This document shows, one piece after another, positions 4,465 to 36,883 of a DNA stretch of 64,000 nucleotides. The DNA lies in the NCBI GenBank assembly GCA_003598085.1, contig QZKU01000127.1, positions 24,334 through 88,333 on the forward strand, in the 5' to 3' direction. Under the pieces are notes generated by a model that made no database searches, was not told where the DNA came from, and worked only from the letters and a program-made list of their open reading frames with translations. The stretch's first letter is position 1; the number at the start of each line of letters is the position of its first letter. Source of the DNA: Candidatus Abyssobacteria bacterium SURF_5. Lineage in GTDB: Bacteria; Abyssobacteria; SURF-5. The position numbers were made by a program, and so were the translations under genes.

Positions 4465-4468
4465 TTTC

Positions 4469-10344: not shown

Positions 10345-10752
10345 TCATGACAACAAAGGCTCGCCCTCTCTCTTCACCTTGGCCTGTTTCTTGTAGAAGG
10401 CATCCTTTACCTTGAGATGCATCTCCTCGATCGAAATGGGCTTCATCAAATAGCCGGAAGCGCCAAGCTTCAACCCCTCGACTTCCGATTCAACCGAAAC
10501 ATGTCCGGTAAGCAGAATGACCTCGATATCGGGATGCTCCTCCTTGATTTTTCGGAGCGCTTCGATTCCGTCGATTCCCGGCATTTTGACGTCGAGCAGC
10601 ACGACGTCGATGGGGGATTCTTTCAGGATCCTCAAGGCATCCAGTCCATTCGTGCAGGTGGACGTGCTGATTCCCCGCTTTTCCAGCAGCTTGCGGTACG
10701 TAGCCAGAAAGCGTTCCTCGTCGTCAACGATCAAGAGGTTAATGGCGCCCAT
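10345..10752 (-). CDS. Single-domain response regulator (REC only)
   Basis: A 135-aa receiver domain with LLIVDDEE, phospho-acceptor Asp in VVLLDVKMPGIDG, VILLTGH and LMKPIS, followed by a charged tail (KKQAKVKRE). It overlaps the 3' end of the upstream histidine kinase gene by 22 bp, so the two are translationally coupled and this is the likely cognate partner. It has no effector domain. Confidence 0.93.
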   Translation of the reverse strand: MGAINLLIVDDEERFLATYRKLLEKRGISTSTCTNGLDALRILKESPIDVVLLDVKMPGIDGIEALRKIKEEHPDIEVILLTGHVSVESEVEGLKLGASGYLMKPISIEEMHLKVKDAFYKKQAKVKREGEPLLS

Positions 10753-12473
10753 TTCGGCGACTCTCCTTGCAATGTTTTCGTTCCTTTTTCGTCTCTTTCG
10801 GGCGGACCGGCAAGCGGAAGCCGGACGGTGAACACCGTGCCCACATTCAGTTCACTGCTTACCATGATCTGCCCGCCCAACCGTTCAATAATTCCATAAC
10901 AGGTGCTCAGCCCGAGGCCGGTGCCTTGCCCAACCGGTTTTGTCGTAAAGAATGGGAGAAAAATTTTTTCCATGTGTTCCGCGGGAATGCCGGTGCCGTT
11001 GTCGGTGACCGCGATTGACATCTCGTCATCGGCAGACGAAGCCGTTATGCGGATTTCTCCTCCGCGCTTGGGCTTCAACGCATCGATCGCATTATTGAGC
11101 AAGTTCAGAAACACCTGTTGCAGTTGAAGCTGATCGCTCAGGATGACCGGCAGAGATGCCTCATACTCCTGAACGATACGAATATTCTCAACCTGAGCCC
11201 GCCGCTCGATCATGCCCACCACATCCGATATCAGAGACCGGATGTCAAACGTGTCGATCTTGGTCTCGGTCTTGCGCGCGAATCCCAGCAGACCTTCGGT
11301 GATGAGTTTTCCCCGCTCCACCTGCAGTGCGATCTGGTCGATCGATTCGCGGAGCAGCCTCAGATTCTCAGCGTCCACAATTCCGCCGTTCCGCTCCGCC
11401 TCCAACAGGATGTCTTTGATGTAAGCTTCTTCTCCTTTGATCACCTGGAGCGGGTTGTTCATCTCGTGAGCGACGCCTGCGCTCATCTCGCCGACTTCCG
11501 CCAGTTTGCCTGCCATGATCAACTGGGTGCCCATCCTGCGCTTTTCCATGTCAGCCATGGCCAACTGGTTCGCGACGCCCGAGGCGAGCATGAACGCCAT
11601 GAATACCGCCAATCCGCCGCCGGCAATGATCATGATAATAGCGATAACCACCGCCCGAATGAGTGGGGCGTAGGCGTCATTCAGCCCCTGCCTGACGATC
11701 AGGAACCAGTCCATCGGCTCTATTTTTCCGGCCGCGTATATGTGGCTTTCATCTTTATAATCGACCGCGGTAAAAGCGAAGATTGTTCTTTGGTCGAAAC
11801 GGTAGATCGAATGATCCGGGTCCACCTCCAGCAGTTCGCCCCCCGACCGGCGACGGGTTTGGAAGACGCCTTCCTCATTGACAATGTACGCCTCGCCGGT
11901 CTTGCCAACGCGCACGTTTTCCACAAGGTCATTGAAGTAAAACCAGTCGATCGTCGTCCGCAGATACCACGTCCGGCTGCCCTCATCGCGGCGGACGGCA
12001 ATAATGAAATGCGGCACATTTCTATACCCGAGAAACTGGTCGGATATATAAACGTCTTTCTGCTGCACCTGAAGGAACCATGGCGCCTGCGCATACTTCC
12101 TGCCTTCAAGTTCGAACGGCCCGACATATGCCACATGGTCCCCATTCTCATTGAACAAACCAATATCGAAAAAGGCGCGCGATCTCATCTGGAGCTGCTC
12201 AAAGATCGTCGCCAGATGCTCTTTATTGCTCAATTCGTCGAAACTATTGGAGGCGGCCACATACTGAAGATCAAAACAACGCTCGCGCAGGAAACCTTCA
12301 ATCATGTTGCGGTGCGCGTCGGCCACCCGAAGCAATTGCGTCTCCACCTGCGAGCGCAGGTTCGTGGCAAAATAGTAGACCAGCGTGCAGAAAACCAAGG
12401 CAAGCGTGACGAACGGCACAAGCAATACCCGTCTCAAAATGATCCGCCGGATATTCTTGAATTCACCAGCCAT
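10731..12473 (-). CDS. Membrane sensor histidine kinase with periplasmic CACHE-like domain
   Basis: The kinase is about 580 aa. TM1 (residues about 10-32, RRVLLVPFVTLALVFCTLVYYF) is followed by a roughly 250-residue extracytoplasmic sensor of double-CACHE type (AFFDIGLFNENGDHVAYVGP, RTTIDWFYFNDLVENV, GKTGEAYIVNEEGVFQ), then TM2 (VVIAIIMIIAGGGLAVFMAFML). The HisKA H-box is GVAHEMNNPLQVI, the N-box LLNNAIDALKP, and the G-boxes VTDNGTGIP and GTGLGLSTCYGI. I place the start at ATG 12473 rather than 12542. It has GGGAG eight bases upstream, and a sigma-54 promoter at 12562-12575 would put the transcript start near 12550, too close to 12542 for a leader. It heads the operon that continues into two RECs and probably the GAPDH-PGK fusion. 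Confidence 0.92.
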   Translation of the reverse strand: MAGEFKNIRRIILRRVLLVPFVTLALVFCTLVYYFATNLRSQVETQLLRVADAHRNMIEGFLRERCFDLQYVAASNSFDELSNKEHLATIFEQLQMRSRAFFDIGLFNENGDHVAYVGPFELEGRKYAQAPWFLQVQQKDVYISDQFLGYRNVPHFIIAVRRDEGSRTWYLRTTIDWFYFNDLVENVRVGKTGEAYIVNEEGVFQTRRRSGGELLEVDPDHSIYRFDQRTIFAFTAVDYKDESHIYAAGKIEPMDWFLIVRQGLNDAYAPLIRAVVIAIIMIIAGGGLAVFMAFMLASGVANQLAMADMEKRRMGTQLIMAGKLAEVGEMSAGVAHEMNNPLQVIKGEEAYIKDILLEAERNGGIVDAENLRLLRESIDQIALQVERGKLITEGLLGFARKTETKIDTFDIRSLISDVVGMIERRAQVENIRIVQEYEASLPVILSDQLQLQQVFLNLLNNAIDALKPKRGGEIRITASSADDEMSIAVTDNGTGIPAEHMEKIFLPFFTTKPVGQGTGLGLSTCYGIIERLGGQIMVSSELNVGTVFTVRLPLAGPPERDEKGTKTLQGESPKWAPLTS

Positions 12474-12561
12474 TAACCGAACTCCCGCGTCTTGCCCGTC
12501 GGTTCGCCCGAAATTCCTGTGATCAAAAGCATGGTTCAACATCCTCTAAGAAAACTGATGA

Positions 12562-12575
12562 GCAAATGTTATGCC
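12562..12575 (-). promoter_or_regulatory. Sigma-54 (-24/-12) promoter for the kinase/GAPDH-PGK operon
   Basis: On the minus strand the sequence reads CGGCATAACATTTGCT, matching GGCA-N6-TTGCT with exact GG-N10-GC spacing. It lies about 90 bp upstream of the chosen kinase start. Its partner enhancer-like element is at 12669-12697. The same pair occurs at two other genes in the window. Confidence 0.72.
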
Positions 12576-12668
12576 GATGCCATGGCTTCTCTGGGGGGGC
12601 GAAAACAGGCGTGAATTCGCTGCTTCAGCGGCCTGAAAAGGCAGGAAAATCTTCAATGATCCGCAGGA

Positions 12669-12697
12669 ATCTTTTACATCTGTAAAGAAATCTGACA
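12669..12697 (-). promoter_or_regulatory. Conserved upstream element (copy A), candidate enhancer/activator site
   Basis: On the plus strand it contains AATC, then nine bases, then TGTAAAGAAATCTGAC. It includes the near-palindrome TTTACATCTGTAAA. Copies at 21597-21624 and 36855-36883 share the block TGTAAARAAAWCYGAC and the leading AATC. It sits about 108 bp upstream of the -24 element. The rest of the gap up to 12810 shows nothing else. Confidence 0.68.
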
Positions 12698-12810: not shown

Positions 12811-14703
12811 CTAATCGAAATCCAGATCAAAGGTATAGATACCTTCGCTGAGCGTGCTTCTCATCTTCAGGCCGCTCTTTTGCAGCAATGACTGCGCCGG
12901 TTTGTTTTCTCGCAGAACCTCGGCCGTAAATCCGCTTATCCCGTTGCGCCGCGCGATCGTTACCAGATACTTCAGCAGGAAACTCCCGATTCCACGCTTC
13001 TGCCAGCTATCGCGGACAAGCAGCGCGATTTCCGCCTTGTTGGTGCGTGGGTCCAGATAGTATCGGCCGATAGCGATGATTTCATCGCCGTGCGCCTCGG
13101 GGACCGTCCCCACGAGCGAAACATCGTTTCGACGGTTGATGTACGCGAAATCCTGCATCTGCCGCTGCGGGATGCGCTTCATATGGGACATGTAACGGTA
13201 GTACATCGCCTGCTGAGAAACCGCGTAAAACAAGTCCCTGATTCGCGGCTCGTCAGTCGGGTGTATCGGACGGAAGTTGATCTGAGTTCCGTCATCCAAC
13301 AGCAGCGAGGTGCGCAAATCCTGGGGACCCAGCAGGAGCTTGCCGTCGGTATCACCCAACTCGCCCGCCAGCTCCGGACGGATATACTTCGCCTTTACCG
13401 CCTCCTGGAGCAGCTTTGCGCGAAAATCGGGATGCGAAATGCTGATCAGCGCAAGAGCGCGATCCTGAACGCTTTTCCCGTGAAGATATGCGATCCCGTA
13501 TTCCGTCACGACGTAATGGACATCGCCCCGCGTTGTAACAACTCCCGCGCCCGCGCTCAAGTGAGTGACAATCCTTGAAACTTTGCCTTCCTGCGCCGTT
13601 GAAGGAAGCGCGATAATCGCTTTCCCGCCGGGCGCCCTGGCGGCGCCTCGATTGAAGTCGACCTGCCCGCCGATCCCGGAGAAAAACTTGGTGCCCAGCG
13701 AATCCGAACAGACCTGGCCGGTCAGGTCAACCTCGAGCGCAACATTGATGGCCACCATCTTATGCTGCTGCCCGATGACAAAAACATCATTCACATATTC
13801 GGTCGGGTGAAATGAGAAGAAGGGATTGTTGTCGATGTAGTCATAAAGCTTCCGGCTCCCCATGCAGAAGCTGGCAACAATTTTCCCGCGGTCTATCGAC
13901 TTGCGTTTGCCCGTGACCGCGCCCGCCTCGATAAGATCGATCAAGGCGTCGGAGAACATCTCCGTATGAATTCCCAAATCCCTCTTCTCTCTGAGAAACT
14001 CGAGCACCGCCTGCGGAATCCGTCCGATCCCGAATTCGACCGTCGAGCCGTCCTCGATCAGAGCGGCGACGTATTCGCCGATCCTGCGCGTGACCTCGGT
14101 CGGCTGCGCCTGCGTGATCTCGTACAGCGGCTCGTCGACCGGCACCAGAATATCAAGATCATTAATATGAATAAAGCTGTCTCCCAGCGTCCGCGGCATT
14201 TGCGGGTTCACCTGCGCAATCACCAGAGCGGCGTTCTCGGCCGCGCTCTTCACGATGTCAACCGATATCCCCAGACTGCAGAGTCCCAGACGATCCGGCG
14301 GCGTCACCTGAATAAGCGCGGAATCAAGCGGCAATTGCCCCGATTTGAAAAGCTTCGGAATGTCGGAAAGGAATATCGGCGTGTAATCGCCCAGACCCTC
14401 CTGAATGATATTGCGCACGTTCTCGGCAATGAAGAAACTGTTCACCCGGAAATGCTCCGCCAGTTCTTTGTGCGCGTAGGGCGCTTCGCCAAAGGTGAGC
14501 AGGTGCACTATTTCCGTGTCGGCAAGCTCATTCGACCGGGCCGTCAGCGCGCGAACAAGCTCCTGCGGCGTCGCACAGCCCGTCCCGATAAACACTCGGT
14601 GACCGGGCATTATTTCAGCCACCGCTTCCTCGGCGGTGGCGATCATCGACCGGTACTTCTCCCGCCAATCAGGATCAAATACATATTTCCGTTGTTCCGT
14701 CAT
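12811..14703 (-). CDS. Acetyl-CoA hydrolase/CoA-transferase fused to a C-terminal GNAT acetyltransferase domain
   Basis: The protein is 630 aa. Residues about 1-450 are a class-I CoA-transferase of the acetyl-CoA hydrolase/4-hydroxybutyrate CoA-transferase family (GHRVFIGTGCATPQELVRAL, IQVTPPDRLGLCSLGISVD, VEFGIGRIPQAVL, SGIGGQVDFNRGA, YVVTEYGIAYLHGKS). Residues about 465-630 are a GNAT N-acetyltransferase (acetyl-CoA loop in DSWQKRGIGSFLLKYL, ending AQSLLQKSGL). The ATG overlaps the stop of the upstream ADP-forming acyl-CoA synthetase by four bases, so the pair is translationally coupled. The transferase half should move CoA between acetyl-CoA and another acid. The GNAT half may acetylate an acyl-CoA enzyme lysine, as in Pat/AcuA-type control of Acs, but this is inference. 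Confidence 0.9.
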   Translation of the reverse strand: MTEQRKYVFDPDWREKYRSMIATAEEAVAEIMPGHRVFIGTGCATPQELVRALTARSNELADTEIVHLLTFGEAPYAHKELAEHFRVNSFFIAENVRNIIQEGLGDYTPIFLSDIPKLFKSGQLPLDSALIQVTPPDRLGLCSLGISVDIVKSAAENAALVIAQVNPQMPRTLGDSFIHINDLDILVPVDEPLYEITQAQPTEVTRRIGEYVAALIEDGSTVEFGIGRIPQAVLEFLREKRDLGIHTEMFSDALIDLIEAGAVTGKRKSIDRGKIVASFCMGSRKLYDYIDNNPFFSFHPTEYVNDVFVIGQQHKMVAINVALEVDLTGQVCSDSLGTKFFSGIGGQVDFNRGAARAPGGKAIIALPSTAQEGKVSRIVTHLSAGAGVVTTRGDVHYVVTEYGIAYLHGKSVQDRALALISISHPDFRAKLLQEAVKAKYIRPELAGELGDTDGKLLLGPQDLRTSLLLDDGTQINFRPIHPTDEPRIRDLFYAVSQQAMYYRYMSHMKRIPQRQMQDFAYINRRNDVSLVGTVPEAHGDEIIAIGRYYLDPRTNKAEIALLVRDSWQKRGIGSFLLKYLVTIARRNGISGFTAEVLRENKPAQSLLQKSGLKMRSTLSEGIYTFDLDFD

Positions 14704-16805
14704 TGCCGAGCCTCTCTTTTCGATAAGATGATGCGCGCATCAGCAACAATGGGCTCAGTCCCGATCTCCCCGACGATCAGCGGGCTGATATCGAGCTCCT
14801 GTATCTGCGGGAAATCCGTCACCAGTTGACTTATCCGCTGAAGCCCGTTGGCGATGGCGCCCAGGTCTACGCCGGGCTGACCGCGCGTTCCTGTCAATAA
14901 CGCATACGACCGGCTTTCCGACAGCATCTGCATCGCCTCCTGAGCCGTTATCGGAGCGAGATGAAACGAGACGTCTTTCATCACCTCCACAAAGATGCCG
15001 CCGAGCCCGAACATCAGCATGGGGCCGAACTGAGGGTCGCGATTCATTCCAAGGATTACTTCGCGGCCGGGAGGACACATCTTCTCGACGTAAACGCCCT
15101 CGAGCTCCACATCGGGCATTCGCTCGCGCACGCGCAGCAACATCAGGTCGCACGCATCGCGAACGTCTTCGGGGTTCGATAGCCGCAGCTTGATCCCGCC
15201 GATATCGGATTTGTGCACGATGTGGGGCGACACGATCTTCAATGCAACGGGATAGCCCATCCGATTCGCTATCTCAACAGCTTCACTCGCGCTCATCACC
15301 ATGTGCCCTTCGGGAACGGTAAATCCATATGCCCGCAGAATCTCTTTTGTCTTCACCTCTCCCACGTACGTGCGGCCGGCTCGCAGCTGACGCGCAATAA
15401 TCCGCTCCACCCGGCGCCGGTGAACCGGGAAACGCGTCACCACGCGAGGAGGACGCCGCCTCCAGGACGCATACTCGCAGAGCGCGCGAAGCGCGGCGAC
15501 CGCGCGCTCAGGAGAAGGATAGTCCGGCAAATTCGAATTGAGCATCTCGCTCCGACCCGGCAGCTGCGCATCACTGCCGATAAAAGCAGCCAGAACGGGT
15601 TTATTCCCGCGGATGCACCCGGCAACGACGCGCGCCGTTTCGGAACAATTCGTCATAACCTTCGGCGTCAGGATGATAATGACCGCGTCAACCGCTTCAT
15701 TATCCAATGCGGCGTTCACCGCATCCTCATACCGATCGCAATCAGCGTCTCCCAAAACATCTATGGGATTATCCGCGGTCACCGAATAAGGAGCCTTCCC
15801 GCGCAATGCGGTGGAAGAACCCCGTTGCGGAGAGGCCAGCGACAGGCCGCAATGCTCGACGGCGTCGGCCGCCAGAATGCCCGGGCCGTATGCATTACTG
15901 ATAATTGCTATTCGATCACCTTTCGGGAGCGGCTGAGTGGCAAACGCGGCCGCATAATCAAGCAGTTTTTCAAAGCTGTCCGCCCGGATCACGCCCGAAC
16001 GGTTAAACGCTGCGCCATATGCGATATCCGATCCGGCCAGACTGCCCGTGTGCGAGGAAGCGGCCTTCATTCCCGCGCGTGTAGTCCCTGCTTTCAGGAT
16101 GACGACGGGCTTCATTGACGCAGCCGTCTCCGCCACTTTCACAAATTCATCGCCGGAACTGATGCTCTCAAGATATCCCACAATCACCCGGGTCTGCTCG
16201 TCCTCGGAGAATGCTTGAAGAAAATCGATTTCCGTCAGGTCCGCCCTGTTCCCGATCCCGACCATCTTCGCCAGCCCGAGATGGCTTCTCGATGCCCAAT
16301 CCATTATGGCCGTGCACACTGCGCCGGATTGAGAGATAACCGATATCCCGCCTTCGTGAGGAAAATGGGGAATGATCGAAGCGTTCAGAGAGTTGCCCGT
16401 ATTGATCAGGCCGGGACAGTTCGGCCCCAGAAGACGCACTTTTTTGGCGGCGCATATCTGCGCAATCCGGCTTTCAATCTCGGCGCCTTCAGGCGAGGCT
16501 TCTCGAAAACCGGCGGTTATCAGCGCTATCGCTTTGGCGCCCGCAAAAATCGCATCTTCAACCGCGGCCAGCACCGCGGGAACCGGAATTGCTATGACTG
16601 CAAGGTCTATGGGTATGCCGCACGTCCTGAGATTCTCACAGCACTTTATGCCCCGCACCCGATCGGCAAGCGGATTTACCGGCACGATGTTTCCCGCGTA
16701 ACCGCAGTCGATCAGGTTCGCCAAAATGTCGTGACCGACTTTGCCGGGACTGCGCGAGGCGCCGATTACGGCAACGCTCTTGGGATACAGCAACGGTTCC
16801 AGCAT
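14700..16805 (-). CDS. ADP-forming acetate/acyl-CoA synthetase, fused alpha-beta form (copy 1)
   Basis: The protein is about 701 aa. It has a CoA-binding domain (LLYPKSVAVIGASRSPGKVG), a succinyl-CoA-ligase-like region (GPNCPGLINTG, VISQSGAVCTAIMDW), the conserved phospho-His segment SSHTGSLAGSD, and a C-terminal ATP-grasp beta part (ILRAYGFTVPEGHMV, ALKIVSPHIVHKSDIGG, MFGLGGIFVEVMKDVSF). The family makes ATP from acyl-CoA, ADP and phosphate, or activates the acid in reverse. The frame opens upstream at 16883, but homology begins at ATG 16805 (MLEPLLYPKS), which I take as the start although its ribosome-binding site is weak. The 194-bp gap upstream holds no clear promoter. Confidence 0.9.
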   Translation of the reverse strand: MLEPLLYPKSVAVIGASRSPGKVGHDILANLIDCGYAGNIVPVNPLADRVRGIKCCENLRTCGIPIDLAVIAIPVPAVLAAVEDAIFAGAKAIALITAGFREASPEGAEIESRIAQICAAKKVRLLGPNCPGLINTGNSLNASIIPHFPHEGGISVISQSGAVCTAIMDWASRSHLGLAKMVGIGNRADLTEIDFLQAFSEDEQTRVIVGYLESISSGDEFVKVAETAASMKPVVILKAGTTRAGMKAASSHTGSLAGSDIAYGAAFNRSGVIRADSFEKLLDYAAAFATQPLPKGDRIAIISNAYGPGILAADAVEHCGLSLASPQRGSSTALRGKAPYSVTADNPIDVLGDADCDRYEDAVNAALDNEAVDAVIIILTPKVMTNCSETARVVAGCIRGNKPVLAAFIGSDAQLPGRSEMLNSNLPDYPSPERAVAALRALCEYASWRRRPPRVVTRFPVHRRRVERIIARQLRAGRTYVGEVKTKEILRAYGFTVPEGHMVMSASEAVEIANRMGYPVALKIVSPHIVHKSDIGGIKLRLSNPEDVRDACDLMLLRVRERMPDVELEGVYVEKMCPPGREVILGMNRDPQFGPMLMFGLGGIFVEVMKDVSFHLAPITAQEAMQMLSESRSYALLTGTRGQPGVDLGAIANGLQRISQLVTDFPQIQELDISPLIVGEIGTEPIVADARIILSKREARQ

Positions 16806-16999
16806 ATTCGTAGAATCTTTGTACCGCGGTTCCCGGGTTTGGCCCAGAAAAAAACCACCTCTTCCCCCTCCGGTGAACCGCAAAAATGTTATTATCCAGC
16901 AGATACAGGCGCTCGCCGAACAACCGCTCGAATTGTCAGCGGGTTCTTTAAGCTAAAAAGAATATATTCCGCCTTCCCACGCATGTCAAGCCAAGGGCA

Positions 17000-18241
17000 T
17001 CACGCCGCCTTCAGACCCGGCGCCACCAGTTGTTCCTCATGCGGCGCTTTCGTTACGAAGGTCAGCGCGGCCGCAACAAGCATCACGAAACCGGCAATCA
17101 CATAGGCCTGGTTAAACGAGCCGGTCGCGTCGAAAATCCTGCCGGATACGATCGGCAAAACGAGCCCGCCGACTCCCCACGCCGTGAAGACCAGGCCGTA
17201 GTTGACGCCGAAATTCTTCAGACCGTAATAGTCTTTTGTCGCCGACGGAAACAGCGACAGGCAGGCTCCGTAGTTGAAGCCGACGACCATCGAATAGGCG
17301 ACCAGCATCGCCAACTGGTCCTGCAGGCGAAGCGTAAACATCAGGACCGCCTGCACCGCAAACACGATGAGCATTGTCGCGGTTCGACCGATCCTGTCCG
17401 AGAGCACCCCGGCAATCACGCGGCCGCCCGCATTGCCCACCGCAAGCAGCGCCACCAGGACGAATCCCGCCGTGGAACCGCTCTGCAGCTCCACGATCTT
17501 CGCCAGCTTCCCGATGATCATCAGACCTGCGCCCGCCCCGCATGCGAACATGAACCAAAGCAAGTAGAACTGCGGAGTCCGCATCATTGACAGCCAATCG
17601 TATTCGTGGACGGGAGCCGCGGGTATTCCCCTATGCACCATCGAAGCCGACGAAGCCGGAACGTATTCCTTGGGCGGATTGCGCAAGAACTGCGCGAGAA
17701 CCACCACGACCAGAAGAAAAGCGATGCCGAAAATCCTCATGGCGACCTGGACGCCGAATGCCGCGATCAGATACCTGGCGAGAGGCGCCGCATACACTGA
17801 CGCCAGACCGAATCCCGCCACCACAATCCCCGCTATCAGGCCCGTCCGCTCGCGCGGAAACCACTTGACGGCGGGTGGTGTCGCCGAGGCATACCCGAAC
17901 CCGATCCCTGCTCCTGCCAACAAACCAAACCCCAGCACAAATACCGTGAGCGAAGTGCTCGCGCTCGCGAGCAAAAAGCCCAATCCGGTCAAAACACCGC
18001 CCATGGTCGCCACCTTGCGCGGGCCGATCTTATCCTGCATCCGCCCGGCAACCACCATGACAAGAGCGAAAACGATGCATGCAATCGAATAAGGGAGCGC
18101 TCGCTGAGCCTCGTTCCACCCCCATTCCTGCGGAATCGCTTTCGAGATGACACTCCACGTATAAAGAACCCCGAGAGCAAGGTTGATGCCTGTCCCGGAG
18201 AGAGCGACGGTCCATCCATAATTCCTGACGTTCTGATTCAT
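17000..18241 (-). CDS. Major facilitator superfamily transporter, OFA (oxalate/formate antiporter) family
   Basis: The protein is 413 aa with about 12 hydrophobic segments. The start NYGWTVALSGTGINLALGVLYTWSV is typical of OFA-type monocarboxylate transporters, as are the loop VVAGRMQDKIGPRKVATMGG, the motif GAGIGFGYASATPPAVKWFP, and the cytoplasmic loop at about residues 190-215. It lies directly downstream of AMP-forming acetyl-CoA synthetase, so acetate, formate or another short acid is a reasonable substrate guess. The real substrate cannot be read from the sequence. Confidence 0.88.
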   Translation of the reverse strand: MNQNVRNYGWTVALSGTGINLALGVLYTWSVISKAIPQEWGWNEAQRALPYSIACIVFALVMVVAGRMQDKIGPRKVATMGGVLTGLGFLLASASTSLTVFVLGFGLLAGAGIGFGYASATPPAVKWFPRERTGLIAGIVVAGFGLASVYAAPLARYLIAAFGVQVAMRIFGIAFLLVVVVLAQFLRNPPKEYVPASSASMVHRGIPAAPVHEYDWLSMMRTPQFYLLWFMFACGAGAGLMIIGKLAKIVELQSGSTAGFVLVALLAVGNAGGRVIAGVLSDRIGRTATMLIVFAVQAVLMFTLRLQDQLAMLVAYSMVVGFNYGACLSLFPSATKDYYGLKNFGVNYGLVFTAWGVGGLVLPIVSGRIFDATGSFNQAYVIAGFVMLVAAALTFVTKAPHEEQLVAPGLKAA

Positions 18242-18344: not shown

Positions 18345-18361
18345 AAAAAGCCGCTCCGGCT
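18345..18361 (-). terminator. Small candidate intrinsic terminator after acs
   Basis: Read on the minus strand, the acs stop codon runs into AGCCGGAGCGGCT followed by TTTTT: a 5-bp stem with a 3-nt loop and a T-run. The stem is short, so termination may be partial and leave read-through into the transporter gene. Confidence 0.4.
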
Positions 18362-20360
18362 ATTTTTTTTGCGCGGCTGCCTCGCCGCCTTTTTTTCCCT
18401 TCAGCAAGTTCTCCACAACCGAGGTGTCGGCCAGGGTCGTGGTATCACCGATCTGCTCACTGCCTTCGGCGATCTTGCGAAGGATTCGCCTCATGATCTT
18501 GCCGCTTCGCGTCTTCGGCAGACCCTCCGCGAACTGCAGTTCGTCGGGCGTCGCAATCGGACCGATCTCCTTCCTGACGTGCGCGATGAGCTGCTTCCTC
18601 ATTGATTCCGAAGCTTCCACTCCCGCCTTCAACGTCACAAAAGCGTAAATACCCTGCCCCTTGATCTCATGCGGCATCGGGACAACGGCGGCCTCCGAGA
18701 CGTTGGGGTGCGAGACCAGCGCGCTTTCAATCTCAGCGGTGCCCAGTCGATGTCCCGACACGTTGATGACGTCGTCGATCCGGCCCATCAGCCAGAAGTC
18801 GCCGTCTTCATCCTTTCTCGCGCCGTCACCCGTAAAATACAAACCGGGATACAACGTGAAATAGGTTTCCTTGAACCGCTTCGGATCGCCATAGACGCCA
18901 CGCATCATCCCGGGCCACGGCCGCTTGATTATGAGATAGCCGCCCTCATTCGGCTTCGCCGGCGAGCCATCCTCTCGTATCACCTCGGCTTCGACTCCGA
19001 AAAACGGCTTGTTTGCGGAGGCCGGTTTCAGCGTGAAGGCGCCGGGCAGCGGCGTAATCAAAATGCCGCCGGTCTCGGTTTGCCACCAGGTATCCACGAT
19101 CGGACATTTCCCCTTGCCGATCAGGTTGTAATACCACATCCAGGCTTCCGGATTGATCGGTTCGCCGACGGTTCCCAGCAGCCGCAAGCTGGACAGGTTG
19201 TTTCGCTTCGGCCACTCGTCGCCCTCCCTCATGATCGAGCGAATCGCCGTGGGGGCCGTATAGAAGATGTTGACCTTGTACTTGTCTATGATCTGCCAGA
19301 ACCTGTCTCTCTCGGGATAGAACGGCACTCCTTCGTACATCACCGACGTCACGCCCTCGCAGAGAGGCCCGTACACGATGTAGCTGTGACCGGTCACCCA
19401 GCCGATGTCGGCCGTGCACCAGAAAACATCTTCGTCGCGATAGTCGAAGATGTACCGAAACGTCTGGGCCGCATACAGCAAATAGCCGGCGGTGGTATGA
19501 AGCACTCCCTTCGGTTTTCCTGTGCTGCCGCTGGTATAGAGAATGAAGAGCGGGTCCTCCGCGTCCATTATCTCCGGCTCGCATTCGTCTTTGATATCGG
19601 GCGCGTTCATCTCCTCGTGCCACCAGCTTTCCATTCCCGGCTTCATCGATACCTGTTTGAAGGTCCGATTCACCACGATCACCTTTTCAACCGACGGGCA
19701 TTTCGTCAGCGCCTCATCTGCCGCCTTTTTCAGTTCGATGATCTTGCCGTTCCGGAAGCTGGCGTCGACGGTGATAAGCATCCTGGCGCCGCTGTCCTGG
19801 ATGCGATCGCGCAACGCGTCGGCGCTGAACCCGCCGAATACCACGCTGTGAATCGCTCCAATCCGCGTGCACGCAAGCATCGCTATCGGGAGTTCCGGAA
19901 TCATCGGCAAATAGATGCAGACGCGATCGCCCTTCTTTATCCCCTTCTTCTTCAGCACGTTCGCAAACCTGCACACCTCCCGATACAGTTGCTCGTAGGT
20001 GTACGACTTGTCCTCGCCCAGCGGCTCGCCTTCCCATTGAAGAGCGATCTTGTTCCTTCGCTTTGTCTTCAGATGTCGATCCAGACAGTTGTAGGAGACA
20101 TTCAGTTTTCCGCCCTCAAACCACCTGCATTCCGTCGTCTCTGCATTCCAATAGTGGACGCGGTCCCATTTCCTGTACCAATCCAGACTCTCGGCCAGGC
20201 GGCCCCAGAACTGGTCCGGATTTTCCAGCGATTCCCGGTACAGCCGCTCATATTCCTCCTGCGATTTGATCCGCGCCTTCTCCTGGAATTCCTTTGGCGG
20301 CGGGAATTTCCGCTGCTCGTCCATCATCGAGGTGATGCCTTTTCCAGCTTTTGTATGCAT
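18360..20360 (-). CDS. acsA: Acetyl-CoA synthetase, AMP-forming
   Basis: The protein is 666 aa, the usual Acs length. It has the ATP-binding P-loop [18 protein letters not shown], the W-W-x-T-E motif at [12 protein letters not shown], hinge/adenylate motifs [16 protein letters not shown] and [20 protein letters not shown], and the C-terminal [17 protein letters not shown], whose Lys is the acetylation-controlled catalytic residue in this family. The N-terminal ACS domain ([20 protein letters not shown]) is present. It converts acetate, ATP and CoA to acetyl-CoA, AMP and PPi in the cytoplasm. It lies upstream of the OFA transporter, fitting acetate uptake and activation. The tail is Lys/Gly-rich. 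Confidence 0.96.
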
Positions 20361-20468: not shown

Positions 20469-21434
20469 TCAGCCGATGATATTGGCCATCTCAAACATCA
20501 GGTCCTTTTCGCGGATCACCCCGATTACCTTATCCTCGTCCATCACGAGCAGCCTCCTGACGTTCAGGGAAAGGAGCCGGTTTGTCGCCTCCAGCAGATC
20601 CGCGTCCGCATCGATCGAGGGCGGTTTATCCAGCATCAACTCGCGGACTTTCTTTTTGCCGAGCTCATGCACCATGTTCGAAAATATCTGCCCGTGAGTC
20701 CGACCCGATTCCGAAACAATCAGCGAAGGCCGCTCCGACAGCAGGCGCAGATAGGTCGACTCGAGCCCCTGCAGAAAATCGGTAAAGCTGATTATCCCAA
20801 TGATCTTGTCCGCCCGATCGCGGACCAGCACGCACCGGTGAACACCTTCATCTACGGTGGTCGTAATCACTGTCTTGCTGCCGATCACCACTTCAATCGG
20901 CTCTTCCTCGACCGAATCGGTGACAATGGTTTTCTGTCCGAGCAGTATTGCAATAGCCTCGGCAATCGTCCAGTCGTCCCGCACAGACCCAAAGGAACTG
21001 AGAGAAACCATGATGTCTCTCACGCGGCGCTCCTTCTCATACGTTCCCTTCTTCTTGTGGTAGGCTTCTCTGATCTTCACCGCGATCAAGTCGATGTCGC
21101 AGGGCTTCACCAGGTAGGCAAACGCCCCATGGCGGAGGCCGAAGGTAACCGATTCCGACGAACCGTATCCCGTGAGAATGATCACCTGGATATCGGGCCG
21201 TATCTTCTTCAGCGAATAAAGCACCTCATTCCCATCCATCCCCGGCATTTTCAGATCGAGAAGAATGACGTCGAAGCTCTCTTTCTTCACCGCTGCAATG
21301 GCCTCTGAGCCGGATGCGGCCGTCTGAATATTGAACCCGCGCTTCCTGAAGAGAGACTTTGCGTTGGCTCGAAAGTTCTCCTCATCGTCCACCAGCAGGA
21401 CATGTATTTCGTGGGTCTCCTGTGTCTTCTGCAT
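20469..21434 (-). CDS. Response regulator with REC domain and paired CBS domains
   Basis: The protein is about 321 aa. An N-terminal receiver (VLLVDDEENF, VILLDLKMPGMDG, VIILTGYG, LVKPCDI) is followed by two CBS motifs (DWTIAEAIAIL...GIISFTDFLQ and PPSIDADADLLEATNRLL...VIGVIREKDL). No DNA-binding or enzymatic output is visible, so the CBS pair, a usual adenosine-nucleotide sensor, may be the output or a second input. I start it at ATG 21434: GGAG lies seven bases upstream, and the sigma-54 promoter at 21500-21513 overlaps the longer frame's start at 21503, which therefore cannot be used. Confidence 0.9.
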   Translation of the reverse strand: MQKTQETHEIHVLLVDDEENFRANAKSLFRKRGFNIQTAASGSEAIAAVKKESFDVILLDLKMPGMDGNEVLYSLKKIRPDIQVIILTGYGSSESVTFGLRHGAFAYLVKPCDIDLIAVKIREAYHKKKGTYEKERRVRDIMVSLSSFGSVRDDWTIAEAIAILLGQKTIVTDSVEEEPIEVVIGSKTVITTTVDEGVHRCVLVRDRADKIIGIISFTDFLQGLESTYLRLLSERPSLIVSESGRTHGQIFSNMVHELGKKKVRELMLDKPPSIDADADLLEATNRLLSLNVRRLLVMDEDKVIGVIREKDLMFEMANIIG

Positions 21435-21499: not shown

Positions 21500-21513
21500 G
21501 CAATTTCTGTGCC
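21500..21513 (-). promoter_or_regulatory. Sigma-54 promoter for the REC-CBS gene
   Basis: The minus strand reads CGGCACAGAAATTGCC: GGCAC-N5-TTGC with exact GG-N10-GC spacing, the best match of the three paired sites. The predicted transcript starts near 21488 and gives a leader of about 54 nt. Confidence 0.8.
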
Positions 21514-21596
21514 GAGTTTTGCGAAAAGAAAAACCCCTTTCTTTTCGCACCTCAATCCCGGCGGATCGAAGAACTCCCGCGCTCCCGGTTGACGGG

Positions 21597-21624
21597 AATC
21601 TTTACATTTGTAAAGAAAACCGAC
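21597..21624 (-). promoter_or_regulatory. Conserved upstream element (copy B), candidate enhancer/activator site
   Basis: On the plus strand AATC is followed by eight bases and TGTAAAGAAAACCGAC, with the palindrome CTTTACATTTGTAAAG. It lies about 98 bp upstream of the -24 element at 21512-21513, matching copies A and C in sequence and position. Confidence 0.7.
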
Positions 21625-21894
21625 GATTTCGCGCCGCCCCGCGGCGACGGTGATGCAATCTCTGCTTTCCCGATCTGGCGACATCGATAATCGCGCACTT
21701 GTCTGAGTTTGCTTATCGTTTCACCGCACGCGGCGCCGCCGCTTCCGACCACTGCCGCCCGTGATTTGATTCGGCATAGTTGTTGCTCCTAGATTGTTTA
21801 ACGCATTGTGTCATAACGGGATTGTCGAAACAACCCTTTCCGGTTGTCCCAAAAGAGGGTATGTTGCTTCTGCTGACCTCTAAGGAGATAAACC
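21625..21894. other. Rest of the divergent intergenic region before the hydrogenase operon
   Basis: No gene is seen. A hairpin-capable cluster lies at about 21818-21850, with GGGATTGT, ACAACC and GGTTGTCCC able to pair in alternative ways. It sits 45-75 bp before the first hydrogenase gene and could be an operator. No convincing -35/-10 pair for the plus-strand operon is visible. AAGGAG precedes the ATG at 21895. Confidence 0.35.
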
Positions 21895-22419
21895 ATGAAG
21901 TGCGAATGTGCTTGCGAAATGATACCCGATGAATTTACCGAGGAGCAATGGAAACGTGTCGATGAGGTTATCGCACGTTACCGCAACAAACCCGGCGCCC
22001 TGATTCCTGTGCTCGAAACGGTGCAGGGAATCACGGGTTACCTCCCGGAGTCCGTGCAGCGGCGCGTGGCAAGAGGCCTGAACATCCCGCTCTCACAAGT
22101 ATATGGCGTCGTCACATTCTACTCGTTCTTCACCATGAAGCCCCGCGGCAGACACCAGGTGCGCGTGTGCCTGGGAACCGCCTGCCATGTCAGGGGATCC
22201 CACAGGGTGCTCCGCGATATGGAGCAAAAACTGGGAATCGAGCCAGGCGAATGCACCGACGACAGGGAATTCAGCCTCGATATAGTCCGCTGCGTGGGCG
22301 CGTGCGGCTTGGCGCCCGTCATGGTTGTTGACGATGACACGCATAAACAGGTAAAGGTGGCCAGGCTCGATCAGATTCTGGATAAGTACCGCCGGCCCGC
22401 CGAGGAGCAGAAACCATGA
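21895..22419 (+). CDS. hndA: NuoE/HndA-type [2Fe-2S] subunit of bifurcating [FeFe] hydrogenase
   Basis: The protein is 174 aa. The N-terminal helical part (ALIPVLETVQGITGYLPESVQ) and thioredoxin-fold [2Fe-2S] domain are typical of the 24-kDa subunit family. The cluster ligands are C-x4-C in RVCLGTACHVRG and C-x3-C in VRCVGACGLAPVM. It passes electrons between the flavin subunit and the hydrogenase subunit. It opens the operon and overlaps the next gene by four bases (ATGA). AAGGAG is present eight bases before the ATG. Confidence 0.94.
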   Translation: MKCECACEMIPDEFTEEQWKRVDEVIARYRNKPGALIPVLETVQGITGYLPESVQRRVARGLNIPLSQVYGVVTFYSFFTMKPRGRHQVRVCLGTACHVRGSHRVLRDMEQKLGIEPGECTDDREFSLDIVRCVGACGLAPVMVVDDDTHKQVKVARLDQILDKYRRPAEEQKP

Positions 22420-25400
22420 CAAAGAAGAACATCACCACTACCGATCTGATACGCATAAAAGACGAGGTCGCGAAAGAAAGAAAAAAATATCGCCTCAGCG
22501 CCATGGTGTGCGGAGGCACCGGATGCCACGCCGGCGGGAGCAAAGCAGTCATCAGCGCCCTCCAGGAAGAAGTCCGGAAAAAGGGACTCGCTCAAGAAGT
22601 GATGGTGGTACAGACCGGGTGCAACGGCTTCTGCGCCATGGGGCCGGTCATGACCGTCCTTCCGGAATCAATTTTTTATCAGAAGCTTGCCCCCGAAGAC
22701 ATGGCGGAAGTGGTCGAACAACATTTCCTGAAAGGGCGCCCCGTCAAGCGCCTCATGTACGTTGACCCGGTAACCGGAGCCATCATCCCGCGGCTCGACG
22801 ACATTCCTTTCTTTGCCAATCAGCAATTGCGGGTGCTCCACAACAAGGGCATGATCGACCCCGAAAAGATTGAGGATTACATCTGGCGCGACGGCTACAT
22901 TGCCGCCGCCAAAGCCCTGCTCGAAATGGGTCCCCGCGAGATAATCAACGAAGTGAAACTCTCGGCCATCCGCGGGCGGGGAGGAGCCGGATTCCCCACA
23001 GGCGTTAAATGGGAATTTTGCGCTAATTCCAAGGGAGACATAAAGTACGTGCTCTGCAATGCGGACGAGGGCGATCCCGGCGCCTTCATGGACCGTAGCG
23101 TAATGGAGGCCGATCCCCATTCCATTCTGGAAGGAATGATCATCGCCGCAAAAGCGATCGGCTCGCACCAGGGCTATATCTATTGCCGCGCCGAATATCC
23201 GCTTGCGGTGCGACGGCTCACTATCGCAATCGATCAGGCGCGCGAACTCGGCCTGTTGGGCAAAAACATTCTCGGATCGGCTTTCGATTTCGACGTCGAG
23301 ATCTACCAGGGAGCCGGCGCATTTGTGTGCGGCGAAGAAACCGCCCTCATGACTTCCATCGAGGGACGCCGCGGCATGCCGCGCCCGCGCCCCCCCTTCC
23401 CGGCCATTTCCGGACTGTGGAAAAAACCGACCATCCTGAATAACGTTGAAACCTTTGCCAATATCCCGCAGATCATCCTCGAGGGCGGCGACAAATACGC
23501 GAAAATCGGAACCGAATCCTCGAAGGGCACGAAGATATTCGCGTTGACCGGCAAAGTCAACAATATCGGATTAGTCGAGGTGCCTATGGGCACCTCCATC
23601 GGACAAATCATCTTCGACATCGGCGGAGGCATCCCCGGCGGCAAAAACTTCAAAGCCGCCCAGCTCGGTGGACCCTCCGGAGGATGCATCCCCGCCGAGC
23701 ATCTGAACCTGCCGACGGATTATGAGGCCATCACCCGGGCCGGCGCTATCATGGGATCGGGCGGATTGATCGTCATGGACGAGGACAACTGCATGGTGGA
23801 CATGGCCCGCTATTTCATGGATTTCTGTCAGGACGAATCCTGCGGCAAGTGCACCCCATGCAGGATAGGCACCAAGCGGATGCTCGAAATCCTCCAGCGC
23901 ATCTGCAAGGGAGAAGGCCGGCAGGGCGACATCGAACTGCTCGAGGAACTCGCAGGCGCCATCAAGGACACCGCCCTTTGCGGCCTCGGACAAACGGCTC
24001 CCAATCCCGTTCTGAGCACGATCAGGTATTTCCGCCATGAATATGAGGCTCATATCCGCGACAAACACTGCGCCGCCGCCGTCTGCTCCGCCTTGTTCAA
24101 GAGCCCGTGCCAGCATACGTGCCCCATCGAGATGGACATCCCCGAGTACGTCGCTCTCGTCCGCGCCGAACGGATCGACGACGCCTATACGGTCCTCAAG
24201 CGAACCAACCCGTTCCCCAGCGTCTGCGGCCGCGTTTGCGGGCATCCGTGCCAGTCGAAATGCAGGCGCGGTCAGCTCGACGAACCTGTCGCAATCAAGT
24301 TCCTCAAGCGTTACGTAGCCGATAATGCCAGGAGGCCGGCCGTCGAACCGATTCCCGTAACCCAAAAGGAGCGCGTCGCAATCGTAGGGGCGGGACCGTC
24401 CGGCCTTACGGCCGCGCTCGAACTGAAGAAACGAGGATATGCCGTCACCGTCTTTGAAGAACTCCCGTACGCGGGCGGAATGCTCCGCTGGGGCATCCCG
24501 GCGTATCGCCTCCCCCGCGAAGTTCTTGACAGGGAAATCAAGGATATTATTGACACCGGCGTCCAGTTGCGGCTGAACACGCGAATCGGACGCGAAATCA
24601 GCTTCGAGGAACTGGAGCGCGAGTATGACATGATCTACCTCGCGATCGGGGCCCACAAGAGCCTCTCGCTCAATATTCCCGGAGAGGATACCGAGGGCGT
24701 ATTCGGGGCGGTCGAACTGCTGAGAATTCACAACCTGGATCGACCGGTCAAGATCGGTAAACGCGCGGCGGTCATCGGCGGCGGCAACTCGGCCATCGAC
24801 TCCGCCCGAACCGCGATCCGGCTGGGAGCCGAAAACGTAACCATTTACTATCGCCGTGAGCGAAAAGACATGCCCGCTCAGGAGGCCGAAATAAGAGCCG
24901 CCGAGGAAGAGGGCGTCCACCTCGAGTATCTGGCGGCTCCCGTGGCCGTTAAGTCCAAGAACGGCAGAGTGTCCGGCCTCGAGCTTGCGCGCATGAAGCT
25001 GGGCCTCTTTGATCGCTCCGGGCGCAAACGTCCCGAGCCGATTAAAGGCTCCGAGTTTACCGCCGAAGTCGACACCGTCATCGCCGCAATCAGTCAATCC
25101 GTCGACCTCGATTTCGTTAATGGGGACAGCGCAATTCAAATCGAGCGAGGAGCAATCAAAATAAATTCGAATCTGCAGACCGGCAACCCAAAGGTATGGG
25201 CGGGCGGAGACGCAGTCACCGGACCCGCCATGGTGATCGACGCAATCCGGGCAGGGCGCGATGCGGCCATCCGCATCGACACCGCCCTCCGGACGGCAAA
25301 CGGACAAAGACCGTGGGTCGCGCCGTCCGATGGAGCCATCGACATCCCGCTCCAGATCGATGAGGAAGTTGTCGAGAAGCCGCAGGCGGCAATGCCCGGG

Positions 25401-25514
25401 GAACCGGCTATCGAGCGGAAGAGAGATTTCCGCGAAGTCGAACTCGGCTACACCTCGAGGCTCGCTGTCGAAGAGGCGCGCCGCTGCATGCGGTGTGACG
25501 CCAAAATCGATTGA
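22416..25514 (+). CDS. NuoF/HndC-type flavin subunit fused to GltD-like NAD(P)H-binding flavoprotein
   Basis: The protein is 1032 aa. Residues about 25-120 are a thioredoxin-like [2Fe-2S] domain (VCGGTGCHAGG, TGCNGFCAMGP). Residues about 130-550 are NuoF, with NADH/FMN site GRGGAGFPTGVKW, CGEETALMTSIEGRRG, and [4Fe-4S] ligands ESCGKCTPCRIG plus ALCGLGQTAPNP. Residues about 560-1032 are a GltD-type module with Cys-rich N-terminus (CQHTCPIEMDIPEY, CGRVCGHPCQSKCRRG), FAD loop VAIVGAGPSGLTAA, NAD(P) loop VIGGGNSAIDSARTA, and C-terminal CMRCDAK. In the NuoF family this is the NADH- and bifurcation-associated subunit. The GltD module could add a second pyridine-nucleotide site, possibly NADPH, but that is inference. 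Confidence 0.93.
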   Translation: MTKKNITTTDLIRIKDEVAKERKKYRLSAMVCGGTGCHAGGSKAVISALQEEVRKKGLAQEVMVVQTGCNGFCAMGPVMTVLPESIFYQKLAPEDMAEVVEQHFLKGRPVKRLMYVDPVTGAIIPRLDDIPFFANQQLRVLHNKGMIDPEKIEDYIWRDGYIAAAKALLEMGPREIINEVKLSAIRGRGGAGFPTGVKWEFCANSKGDIKYVLCNADEGDPGAFMDRSVMEADPHSILEGMIIAAKAIGSHQGYIYCRAEYPLAVRRLTIAIDQARELGLLGKNILGSAFDFDVEIYQGAGAFVCGEETALMTSIEGRRGMPRPRPPFPAISGLWKKPTILNNVETFANIPQIILEGGDKYAKIGTESSKGTKIFALTGKVNNIGLVEVPMGTSIGQIIFDIGGGIPGGKNFKAAQLGGPSGGCIPAEHLNLPTDYEAITRAGAIMGSGGLIVMDEDNCMVDMARYFMDFCQDESCGKCTPCRIGTKRMLEILQRICKGEGRQGDIELLEELAGAIKDTALCGLGQTAPNPVLSTIRYFRHEYEAHIRDKHCAAAVCSALFKSPCQHTCPIEMDIPEYVALVRAERIDDAYTVLKRTNPFPSVCGRVCGHPCQSKCRRGQLDEPVAIKFLKRYVADNARRPAVEPIPVTQKERVAIVGAGPSGLTAALELKKRGYAVTVFEELPYAGGMLRWGIPAYRLPREVLDREIKDIIDTGVQLRLNTRIGREISFEELEREYDMIYLAIGAHKSLSLNIPGEDTEGVFGAVELLRIHNLDRPVKIGKRAAVIGGGNSAIDSARTAIRLGAENVTIYYRRERKDMPAQEAEIRAAEEEGVHLEYLAAPVAVKSKNGRVSGLELARMKLGLFDRSGRKRPEPIKGSEFTAEVDTVIAAISQSVDLDFVNGDSAIQIERGAIKINSNLQTGNPKVWAGGDAVTGPAMVIDAIRAGRDAAIRIDTALRTANGQRPWVAPSDGAIDIPLQIDEEVVEKPQAAMPGEPAIERKRDFREVELGYTSRLAVEEARRCMRCDAKID

Positions 25515-25542
25515 ATGGCGATATCGATAAAGGAGATCAGGA

Positions 25543-27270
25543 ATGGTTACGCTGACAATAGATAATCGTGAGGTGAAGGTTCCCGAAGGGACCCCCATCC
25601 TCGAGGCGGCGCGCTCGATCGGTATTCGCATACCCACCCTGTGCGCGCTCCCCGAGATTAATCATACGCCCGGCGCATGTCGCGTGTGCGTGGTCGAAGT
25701 CGATCGAAGCCGAACCCTCGTCGCCTCCTGCGTCTATCCGGTGGCCGAGGGCATGAAGGTGAAAACTAACTCGGAGCGCGTGCGCCGGGCGCGCCGGAGC
25801 GTGGTCGAATTCCTCCTGTCCGACCATCCCGCCGATTGCAACATCTGCCAGAAACACGAACACTGTGAGCTGCAGGCGGTGGCCGAGCTCGTCGGCGTGC
25901 GAACCATACGCGTCCCCCGTACCATATTCAATTCGCGCCAAGTCGACGACTCCTCTCCTTCGCTCGTTCGTGATTCCTCCAAATGCGTCAACTGTGTCAG
26001 GTGCGTCGCCGTCTGCGCGGAAGTGCAGGGAGTCAGCCTGCTGACTCCCGAGGGACGCGGATTTGAATCGAAGGTCGTGCCCGCAATGAACGCTAACCTT
26101 GCGGATTCAGCGTGCACCTACTGCGGGCAATGCTCGGTCGTGTGCCCGACCGGCGCCATCATCGAACACGATGATACTGATAAAGTGTTCGCCGCGCTCG
26201 AAGACCCGTCAAAGCATGTGATCGTGCAGGAGGCGCCGGCGATACGAGCCGCGCTCGGCGAGGAATTCGGAATGCCGCCGGGAACGCTCGTCACCGGCAA
26301 AATGATAGCCGCTCTCCGAAGGCTCGGCTTCGACAGAATCTTCGATACCAACTTCACCGCCGATCTGACTATTATCGAGGAGGGCAACGAGTTGCTCAAG
26401 CGGGTCAAGACCGGCGGAAAACTCCCGATGATAACGTCGTGCAGCCCCGGCTGGATCAAGTTCATCGAGCATTTCTATCCATCGCTCCTTCCGCATCTCA
26501 GCACCTGCAAGTCGCCCCAGCAAATGTTCGGAGCGTTGGCCAAAACGTATTACCCAAAACTCACCGGCATCGACCCGAAGGACATCTTTGTCGTCTCTAT
26601 CATGCCCTGCACCGCAAAGAAATATGAGGCTTCGCGGCCGGAAATGTGCTCGTCGGGATATCGCGACGTCGATGCCGTCCTTACCACGCGCGAACTCGGC
26701 CGCATGATCCGGCAGGCCGGAATCGATTTCGTGAATCTGCCGGACGAGCCGTACGATCCTCCCATGGGGCAATACACCGGCGCCGGCACCATTTTCGGCG
26801 CCACCGGCGGCGTCATGGAGGCCGCGCTGCGAACCGTCTACGCCGTCGTCTGCGGCCACAACATGCCGAGCCTCGACATCATGCCGGTCCGTGGCCTTGA
26901 GGGCGTGAAAGAAGCCGCCATGCAGGTCGGCCCTCTCGGCGAGGTCCGCGTCGCTGTCGCTCACGGCCTCGGCAATGCGCGCAAATTGCTGGATAAGGTG
27001 ATGGACGGCTCCGCAAATTATCATTTCATAGAGATCATGGCCTGTCCCGGCGGGTGCGTCGGCGGCGGCGGACAGCCGCTTCCCGTGAGCAATGAAAAGC
27101 GCAGCCTGCGAGCGCAGGCGCTGTACGTCGACGACGCCGAAGTCCAGCAACTCCGGCAATCGCACGAGAATCCGGCCGTTAAAGAGCTGTATGAGAAATT
27201 TCTGAAAGAACCGCTCGGTGCAATGTCTCACAAACTGCTCCACACACACTACGTCGAGCGCGACTTTTAA
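25543..27270 (+). CDS. hydA: [FeFe] hydrogenase catalytic subunit
   Basis: The protein is 575 aa. It has an N-terminal [2Fe-2S] ferredoxin domain (C residues in PTLCALPEINHTPGACRVCVVEV), a His-ligated [4Fe-4S] segment (HPADCNICQKHEHCELQ), a 2x[4Fe-4S] ferredoxin domain (KCVNCVRCVAVC, CTYCGQCSVVCPTGAI), and all three H-cluster signatures: L1 TSCSPGW, L2 MPCTAKKYEA, L3 EIMACPGGCVGGGGQP. A C-terminal small-subunit-like tail ends HTHYVERDF. It catalyses reversible H2 oxidation/proton reduction. With the two preceding genes it makes a three-subunit NAD(P)- and ferredoxin-linked bifurcating type. AAAGGAGAT precedes the ATG. Confidence 0.97.
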   Translation: MVTLTIDNREVKVPEGTPILEAARSIGIRIPTLCALPEINHTPGACRVCVVEVDRSRTLVASCVYPVAEGMKVKTNSERVRRARRSVVEFLLSDHPADCNICQKHEHCELQAVAELVGVRTIRVPRTIFNSRQVDDSSPSLVRDSSKCVNCVRCVAVCAEVQGVSLLTPEGRGFESKVVPAMNANLADSACTYCGQCSVVCPTGAIIEHDDTDKVFAALEDPSKHVIVQEAPAIRAALGEEFGMPPGTLVTGKMIAALRRLGFDRIFDTNFTADLTIIEEGNELLKRVKTGGKLPMITSCSPGWIKFIEHFYPSLLPHLSTCKSPQQMFGALAKTYYPKLTGIDPKDIFVVSIMPCTAKKYEASRPEMCSSGYRDVDAVLTTRELGRMIRQAGIDFVNLPDEPYDPPMGQYTGAGTIFGATGGVMEAALRTVYAVVCGHNMPSLDIMPVRGLEGVKEAAMQVGPLGEVRVAVAHGLGNARKLLDKVMDGSANYHFIEIMACPGGCVGGGGQPLPVSNEKRSLRAQALYVDDAEVQQLRQSHENPAVKELYEKFLKEPLGAMSHKLLHTHYVERDF

Positions 27271-36738: not shown

Positions 36739-36752
36739 GCAATAGCCGTGCC
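36739..36752 (-). promoter_or_regulatory. Sigma-54 promoter for the second ADP-forming synthetase
   Basis: The minus strand reads CGGCACGGCTATTGCA: GGCAC-N5-TTGCA with exact GG-N10-GC spacing, about 100 bp upstream of the gene start. Confidence 0.78.
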
Positions 36753-36854
36753 GAACTGATTTCGCTCTTTTTCCACTTAATTTTGACACAAAAACAGGCA
36801 TCTTGTGGAGGAATCCGGTGATTTTCGCCGAAATCGGGTTGGAAACTGAAAGGC

Positions 36855-36883
36855 AATCCTTCAGTCTGTAAAAAAATCCGACA
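36855..36883 (-). promoter_or_regulatory. Conserved upstream element (copy C), candidate enhancer/activator site
   Basis: On the plus strand AATC, eight bases, then TGTAAAAAAATCCGAC. It sits about 117 bp upstream of the -24 element. Its left half (CTTCAGTC) has lost the palindrome seen in copies A and B, which suggests that the TGTAAARAAAWCYGAC half carries the recognition. The rest of the 36643-36989 gap shows nothing else. Confidence 0.66.

Follow-up and report, generated by a model that had tools for sequence, protein, structure and literature searches.

A probable inverted-repeat enhancer shared by sigma-54 promoters in a Candidatus Abyssobacteria genome, with a likely NtrC-type activator and recurrence in other phyla

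The closest described counterpart of the promoters studied here is found upstream of proteobacterial PEP-CTERM genes, where the text of Haft et al. (2006, PMC1569441) describes, in large intergenic regions, a 17-nt motif 1 with TTTACA at its end and, beyond a spacer of 32-92 nt (mean, 62.8), a sigma-54 motif (motif 2). PrsR is the predicted binder of motif 1 in that account, which reports the motif from Proteobacteria only. Sigma-54-dependent two-component enhancer-binding proteins (EBPs) with palindromic sites have also been described in the sulfate reducer Desulfovibrio vulgaris, in which their regulons control lactate, acetate, alcohol, and acetyl-CoA genes (Rajeev et al. 2011, PMC3333781); the likeness of our locus to these regulons is one of description.

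The window, a stretch of 64,000 nt, belongs to the genome of Candidatus Abyssobacteria bacterium SURF_5, an organism of the deep subsurface (hereafter G000; 5.1 Mb, 98.5% complete). At three of three minus-strand promoters in the window, GTCRGNTTTYTTTACA was located upstream of GGCAY-N5-TTGC, with a gap of 95, 105, or 114 bp between the end of the left half-site and the GG of the box. A sequence-only reading had pointed to three GG-N10-GC boxes with a common block upstream, and all three were recovered at their positions on the minus strand, each preceded by the element. The AATC and 8-9 bases that this reading placed before the block are indeed present, but they constitute the other arm of an imperfect inverted repeat of 34-35 bp. 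The full form is GTCRGNNTTYYTTACA-N2/3-TGTAARRAANNCYGAC, of which the right arm is weaker; it is clearest at 21591-21624 (plus-strand arms, GACGGGAATCTTTACA / TGTAAAGAAAACCGAC) and in the relatives. The elements and boxes are as follows.

12663-12696, minus strand: enhancer element of site 1, intergenic; left half-site GTCAGATTTCTTTACA (12696-12681), 2-bp spacer, right half-site TGTAAAAGATTCCTGC
12562-12575, minus strand: sigma-54 -24/-12 box of site 1, GGCATAACATTTGC (12575-12562), 105 bp downstream of the left half-site
21591-21624, minus strand: enhancer element of site 2, GTCGGTTTTCTTTACA-AA-TGTAAAGATTCCCGTC (left half-site, 21624-21609), the best inverted repeat of the three
21500-21513, minus strand: sigma-54 -24/-12 box of site 2, GGCACAGAAATTGC (21513-21500), 95 bp downstream; identical in the relative G001 (TCGGCACAGAAATTGCC)
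36848-36882, minus strand: enhancer element of site 3, GTCGGATTTTTTTACA (36882-36867), right arm degenerate
36739-36752, minus strand: sigma-54 -24/-12 box of site 3, GGCACGGCTATTGC (36752-36739), 114 bp downstream

The view that this recurrence is hard to explain by chance was borne out by genome-wide counts. Across the 5.1-Mb genome, the 16-mer GTCNGNTTTYTTTACA is matched exactly at three places and no others, namely the window sites, against an expectation of approximately 0.08 (our estimate for uniform bases). A paired model of element and box, trained only on the sites of other lineages, scored the window sites at 43-46 bits and returned exactly five paired sites (36-46 bits) in approximately 0.21 Mb of long stretches of G000, with none in the remaining candidate loci examined. 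At a threshold of 26 bits, the same model matched nothing in reversed sequence or in G000 sequence after Markov shuffling (3.19 Mb). The five promoters are all intergenic, and all carry GGCAY-N5-TTGC. A paired pattern search in three genomes of the phylum (G000 and its relatives G001 and G002) recovered the window sites, two promoters on contig C114 of G000, and the REC-CBS promoters of both relatives, to which a weight-matrix scan added sites on G001:C97 and on C76 of G041, a genome from outside the phylum. Elsewhere in G000, two-mismatch matches to the element on both strands lacked a paired sigma-54 box except for the two on C114, and a search with an N6 spacer, which acted as a control, gave unrelated matches only. 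RpoN itself is encoded in G000 (PF04552 at G000:C31:5654-6127, 221.9 bits). What had been described as a three-gene regulon comprises at least five promoters, plus a probable sixth that faces a hydrogenase operon.

The genes behind the three elements, together with the divergent hydrogenase side of site 2, are listed below.

10731-12542, minus strand: dCache-HisKA-HATPase histidine kinase, target of site 1
4469-9721, minus strand: 1750-aa protein with GAPDH-like and PGK domains, probably in the site-1 operon by gene order
1150-4521, minus strand: PPDK-like protein, 1123 aa, probably in the site-1 operon by gene order
20469-21434, minus strand: REC-CBS protein (receiver plus CBS), target of site 2; ATG and Shine-Dalgarno read in the sequence
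18360-20360, minus strand: AMP-forming acetyl-CoA synthetase family protein, downstream of REC-CBS in the putative operon
17000-18241, minus strand: MFS transporter, downstream of REC-CBS in the putative operon
14700-16883, minus strand: NDP-forming acyl-CoA synthetase (CoA-binding/Succ_CoA_lig/ATP-grasp_5), downstream of REC-CBS in the putative operon
12811-14703, minus strand: acetyl-CoA hydrolase/transferase-GNAT fusion, downstream of REC-CBS in the putative operon
34462-36642, minus strand: ADP-forming (NDP-forming) acyl-CoA synthetase (ACD), target of site 3
21772-21787, plus strand: divergent sigma-54 box facing the [FeFe]-hydrogenase operon, CGGCATAGTTGTTGCT; conserved in G001 (CGGCACGGTTGTTGCT)
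21895-27270, plus strand: NuoE/F-like subunits and group A6 [FeFe] hydrogenase, probable divergent target

The kinase, REC-CBS, and acyl-CoA synthetase genes named earlier are the predicted targets; the GAPDH-PGK and PPDK genes are joined to the first of these by gene order. In the 1750-aa protein, the GAPDH-like and PGK domains occupy the C-terminal half and are preceded by approximately 870 residues without a Pfam match; the PPDK-like protein likewise has a long N-terminus without a match. The maturases HydG and HydF and another radical SAM protein are encoded further downstream of the [FeFe] hydrogenase, which is probably under the control of the shared element, and the hydrogenase side in G001 has its own additional plus-strand half-site (L124:18124-18247). 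On C114, the predicted targets are a second dCache kinase, a receiver-SLC13 transporter fusion, and a GlgC-like nucleotidyltransferase. The element precedes both the site-1 kinase and its C114 paralogue (61% identical), as well as homologues in G001:C97 and G041:C76. Conservation was also evident at orthologous genes, the element being kept at the REC-CBS promoter in both G001 and G002. No element was found, even with relaxed thresholds, upstream of the closest site-3 orthologue (G041, 68%) or of the C106 kinase paralogue.

The gene order on C114 points to a candidate activator. A histidine kinase, an EBP, the element, a sigma-54 box, and the dCache kinase follow one another there, and the same order is present in G001:C97 and G041:C76. 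The EBP (G000:C114:41111-42541; 476 aa, REC-AAA+-HTH, NtrC-type) ends 21 bp before the element in G000:C114, and its counterparts end 94 bp before it in G001:C97, 34 bp in G002:C129, and 29 bp in G041:C76; genes of its family end 50-56 bp before the element in Desulfatitalea and two Desulfotignum genomes. Among 12 Desulfobacterota genomes selected because they carry the element, nine encode orthologues with 60-69% identity (620-710 bits; the next best EBP reaches approximately 45%); the family is absent from the other three, in which the pattern matches may be due to chance or served by another EBP. The three PEP-CTERM proteobacteria included in the same search possess PrsR and lack this family. 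The best-scoring NCBIfam model for the candidate was NtrC (TIGR01818; 496.9 bits), with the same domain order, although this score falls below the cut-off of 558.6. The NtrC site is TGCACC-N5-GGTGCA, which the window element does not match.

The recognition helix further connects this family with the element. The core RPT[LF] occurred in 13 of 13 family members, in five of five PrsRs, and in none of 57 other EBPs (75 distinct EBPs, a sample of top matches rather than of every EBP per genome), and the candidate and PrsR have the core SRPTL in common. In a FastTree phylogeny, the candidate family (support, 1.0) and PrsR (0.984) nevertheless formed separate supported clades that were not sisters. 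That two families not closely related have a site and a helix core in common suggests either that they converged or that an old specificity was kept. The EBP on C114 is likely the best candidate for the activator and the predicted binder of the element.

Considered as a whole, the observations are best explained by a sigma-54 regulon with an inverted-repeat enhancer and the C114 EBP as its likely activator, a reading to which we assign a probability of about 0.75. A dimer or oligomer of this two-component EBP, phosphorylated by a putative partner, the histidine kinase whose gene directly precedes its own, would bind GTCRGNNTTYYTTACA-N2/3-TGTAARRAANNCYGAC approximately 95-117 bp upstream, on roughly the same helical face throughout, and would loop the DNA to activate RpoN polymerase at GGCAY-N5-TTGC. 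Its family, which appears orthologous with that of the Desulfobacterota and apart from PrsR, would read essentially the same DNA as PrsR.

The activator proposed by the sequence-only reading was a different protein, encoded within the window.

49357-50736, plus strand: NtrC-type EBP, recognition helix SRPKLYRKM; weaker candidate

Its location in the window, its orthologues in G001 and G002 (77-80%; RPKL core in all three), and the closeness of its helix to SRPTL would make binding to the element conceivable, and the similarity of the SRPKL core means that cross-talk with the C114 EBP is possible. However, the best relative in G041 is only 45% identical, though G041 has the element; the gene is part of a separate kinase operon, near which no element was found; and the protein shares approximately 41% identity with the EBP family that accompanies the element across genomes, from which it forms a separate clade. 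We therefore regard this EBP as an unlikely activator of the three promoters. Another EBP, G001:C208:5972-7318, was considered for linkage to the site in G001 and dropped because its helix differs (SRRTLKYQM). The genome of G000 encodes very many histidine kinases, receivers, and EBPs, with 81 matches to one kinase query and 85 to the PrsR model.

Since the element is palindromic, and many dimeric regulators could bind a sequence such as TTTACA-N2/3-TGTAAA, it might instead be the operator of a dimeric repressor or of some other factor that lies upstream of sigma-54 promoters by chance. The geometry argues otherwise. At the nine sites of Abyssubacteria type or from G041 that have a clear box, the gaps were 95, 105, 114, 114, 116, 117, 117, 117, and 148 bp, so the constant distance claimed at the outset gives way to a set of values; no clear sigma-54 box was found at G002:C129, where the element adjoins the EBP gene. 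Gaps in the pan-genome set cluster near 96-97, 106-109, and 117-119 bp, approximately one helical turn apart, a count that overstates independence because many of these sites come from related Desulfobacula. The distances between element and box thus take values near helical-turn steps, which is enhancer geometry. Given a strong sigma-54 box 95-148 bp away in almost all cases, near whole helical turns, and an EBP gene adjoining the element, the operator explanation seems very improbable. The three window sites are instead predicted to be a real enhancer of a known kind, a reading well supported by their intergenic position, pairing with boxes, conservation in two relatives, and recurrence in other phyla.

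That kind is the one set out for PEP-CTERM genes in exopolysaccharide/PEP-CTERM bacteria. As with motif 1 and motif 2 in the description by Haft et al. (2006, PMC1569441), the window element ends in TTTACA, is intergenic, and lies upstream of a sigma-54 box, with an NtrC-like EBP as the predicted binder. Unlike the 32-92 nt described there, however, the spacing here is 95-117 bp, with one gap of 148 bp, and the G000 element has a clear second half-site and precedes kinase, REC-CBS, ACD, and GlgC-like genes. Because this description and the PEP-CTERM genes recovered in our searches agree, we treat the element as being of the motif 1 kind, matched by description; the sequence-only reading had not recognised in it the site of a named regulator.

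A scan of the GTDB collection, using a strict two-part pattern that was derived from the window and from its relatives and admitted long gaps only, matched 54 stretches against approximately one expected (our estimate for uniform bases; more in AT-rich genomes). Likeness among these sites is partly a product of selection, as they were found with a window-derived pattern, and a few of the matches (L189 among them) seem to be due to chance. The next gene in Beta- and Alphaproteobacteria and a Verrucomicrobiales metagenome-assembled genome (MAG) mostly encodes a PEP-CTERM protein (12 by a C-terminal rule; L158 by eye). In the other group, comprising Desulfobacula, Desulfotignum, Desulfatitalea, Desulfobacter, and others, the next gene encodes a CBS protein (n = 10), a receiver (n = 6, including two Abyssubacteria-like REC-CBS proteins), a universal stress protein (USP; n = 5), or a histidine kinase (n = 3). 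Whether it was made from only the PEP-CTERM sites or only the Desulfobacterota sites, a matrix ranked the three window sites top in the window, a check that is partly circular because those sites had been selected with the pattern of this lineage.

The fit to motif 1 and the occurrence of the same pair before proteobacterial PEP-CTERM genes might suggest that G000 simply has an ordinary PEP-CTERM/PrsK-PrsR regulon as in Haft et al. This explanation is largely refuted, its probability being minimal. No exosortase (PF09721) was matched in G000 or G041, although both G001 and G002 have one, and no PEP-CTERM protein was present among the downstream genes examined. The PrsR cut-off (TIGR02915; 502.6 bits) was reached by no EBP in G000, G001, G002, or G041, the best score in the G000 scan being 428.9 bits and that of the whole candidate EBP 444.9, whereas it was passed in five of five PEP-CTERM genomes with an exosortase that were tested. 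PrsR was accordingly rejected as the cognate regulator in G000. The Verrucomicrobiales MAG (L158, G072) encodes a PrsR above the cut-off and exosortases, and in it the element precedes the gene for a PEP-CTERM-like protein. That one promoter was recently duplicated together with its gene, an event to which the 61% identity of the two kinases and the abundance of kinase and REC paralogues could be ascribed, is hardly credible, since the REC-CBS, ACD, and GlgC-like targets are unrelated and the promoters lack alignable sequence beyond the element and the -24/-12 box, which speaks against simple promoter duplication.

The gene classes recurring beside the element and the candidate EBP family across phyla are dCache kinases, REC, REC-CBS, ACD, PPDK, USP, and CBS proteins. 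In Desulfotignum, the EBP-adjacent element precedes a CBS gene, two USP genes, and an acyl-CoA synthetase-GNAT gene whose product is a homologue of the site-3 target (CBS-USP-USP operon; L285, L288), and PPDK-like genes follow the element in Desulfomonile (L180) and adjoin the candidate EBP in L282. The predicted regulon would accordingly cover acetyl-CoA/acetate interconversion, PPDK, GAPDH-PGK, dCache kinases, receiver/CBS proteins, and probably the divergent [FeFe] hydrogenase, and that of the sulfate reducers would additionally take in universal stress proteins. It looks like an energy- or carbon-supply response; the overlap of target classes suggests that acetyl-CoA, acetate, or energy supply is sensed, the signal being our guess.

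We give roughly even odds to the broader proposal that two separate EBP families, PrsR and a still unnamed family of NtrC type from Desulfobacterota and from Abyssubacteria-like bacteria, use the same enhancer, and that the second runs an undescribed cross-phylum energy/acetyl-CoA/stress regulon. No report of such a second, non-PEP-CTERM regulon was found in the open-access papers searched. If the proposal holds, the element would mark a further regulon, served by a separate EBP family and common to sulfate reducers and an uncultured subsurface lineage; the unnamed regulator would gain a predicted binding site and a target list; and acetate/acetyl-CoA metabolism, [FeFe] hydrogenase, PPDK, USP, and CBS proteins would be linked by a single two-component system. 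The regulon is open to testing in cultured hosts, Desulfobacter vibrioformis being one, and the two families would offer a natural case of how the residues of the recognition helix (SRPT) determine which site a Fis-type HTH domain reads.

GNAT fusions of two kinds lie behind the element, one with an acetyl-CoA hydrolase/transferase (window, 12811-14703) and one with an NDP-forming acyl-CoA synthetase (Desulfotignum, L285:4672-7431), the latter resembling Pat-type protein acetyltransferases. A receiver fused to an SLC13-type (Na+/sulfate symporter) transporter is also encoded beside the regulator locus in two phyla (L130:6995-9109, L284:16085-18148).
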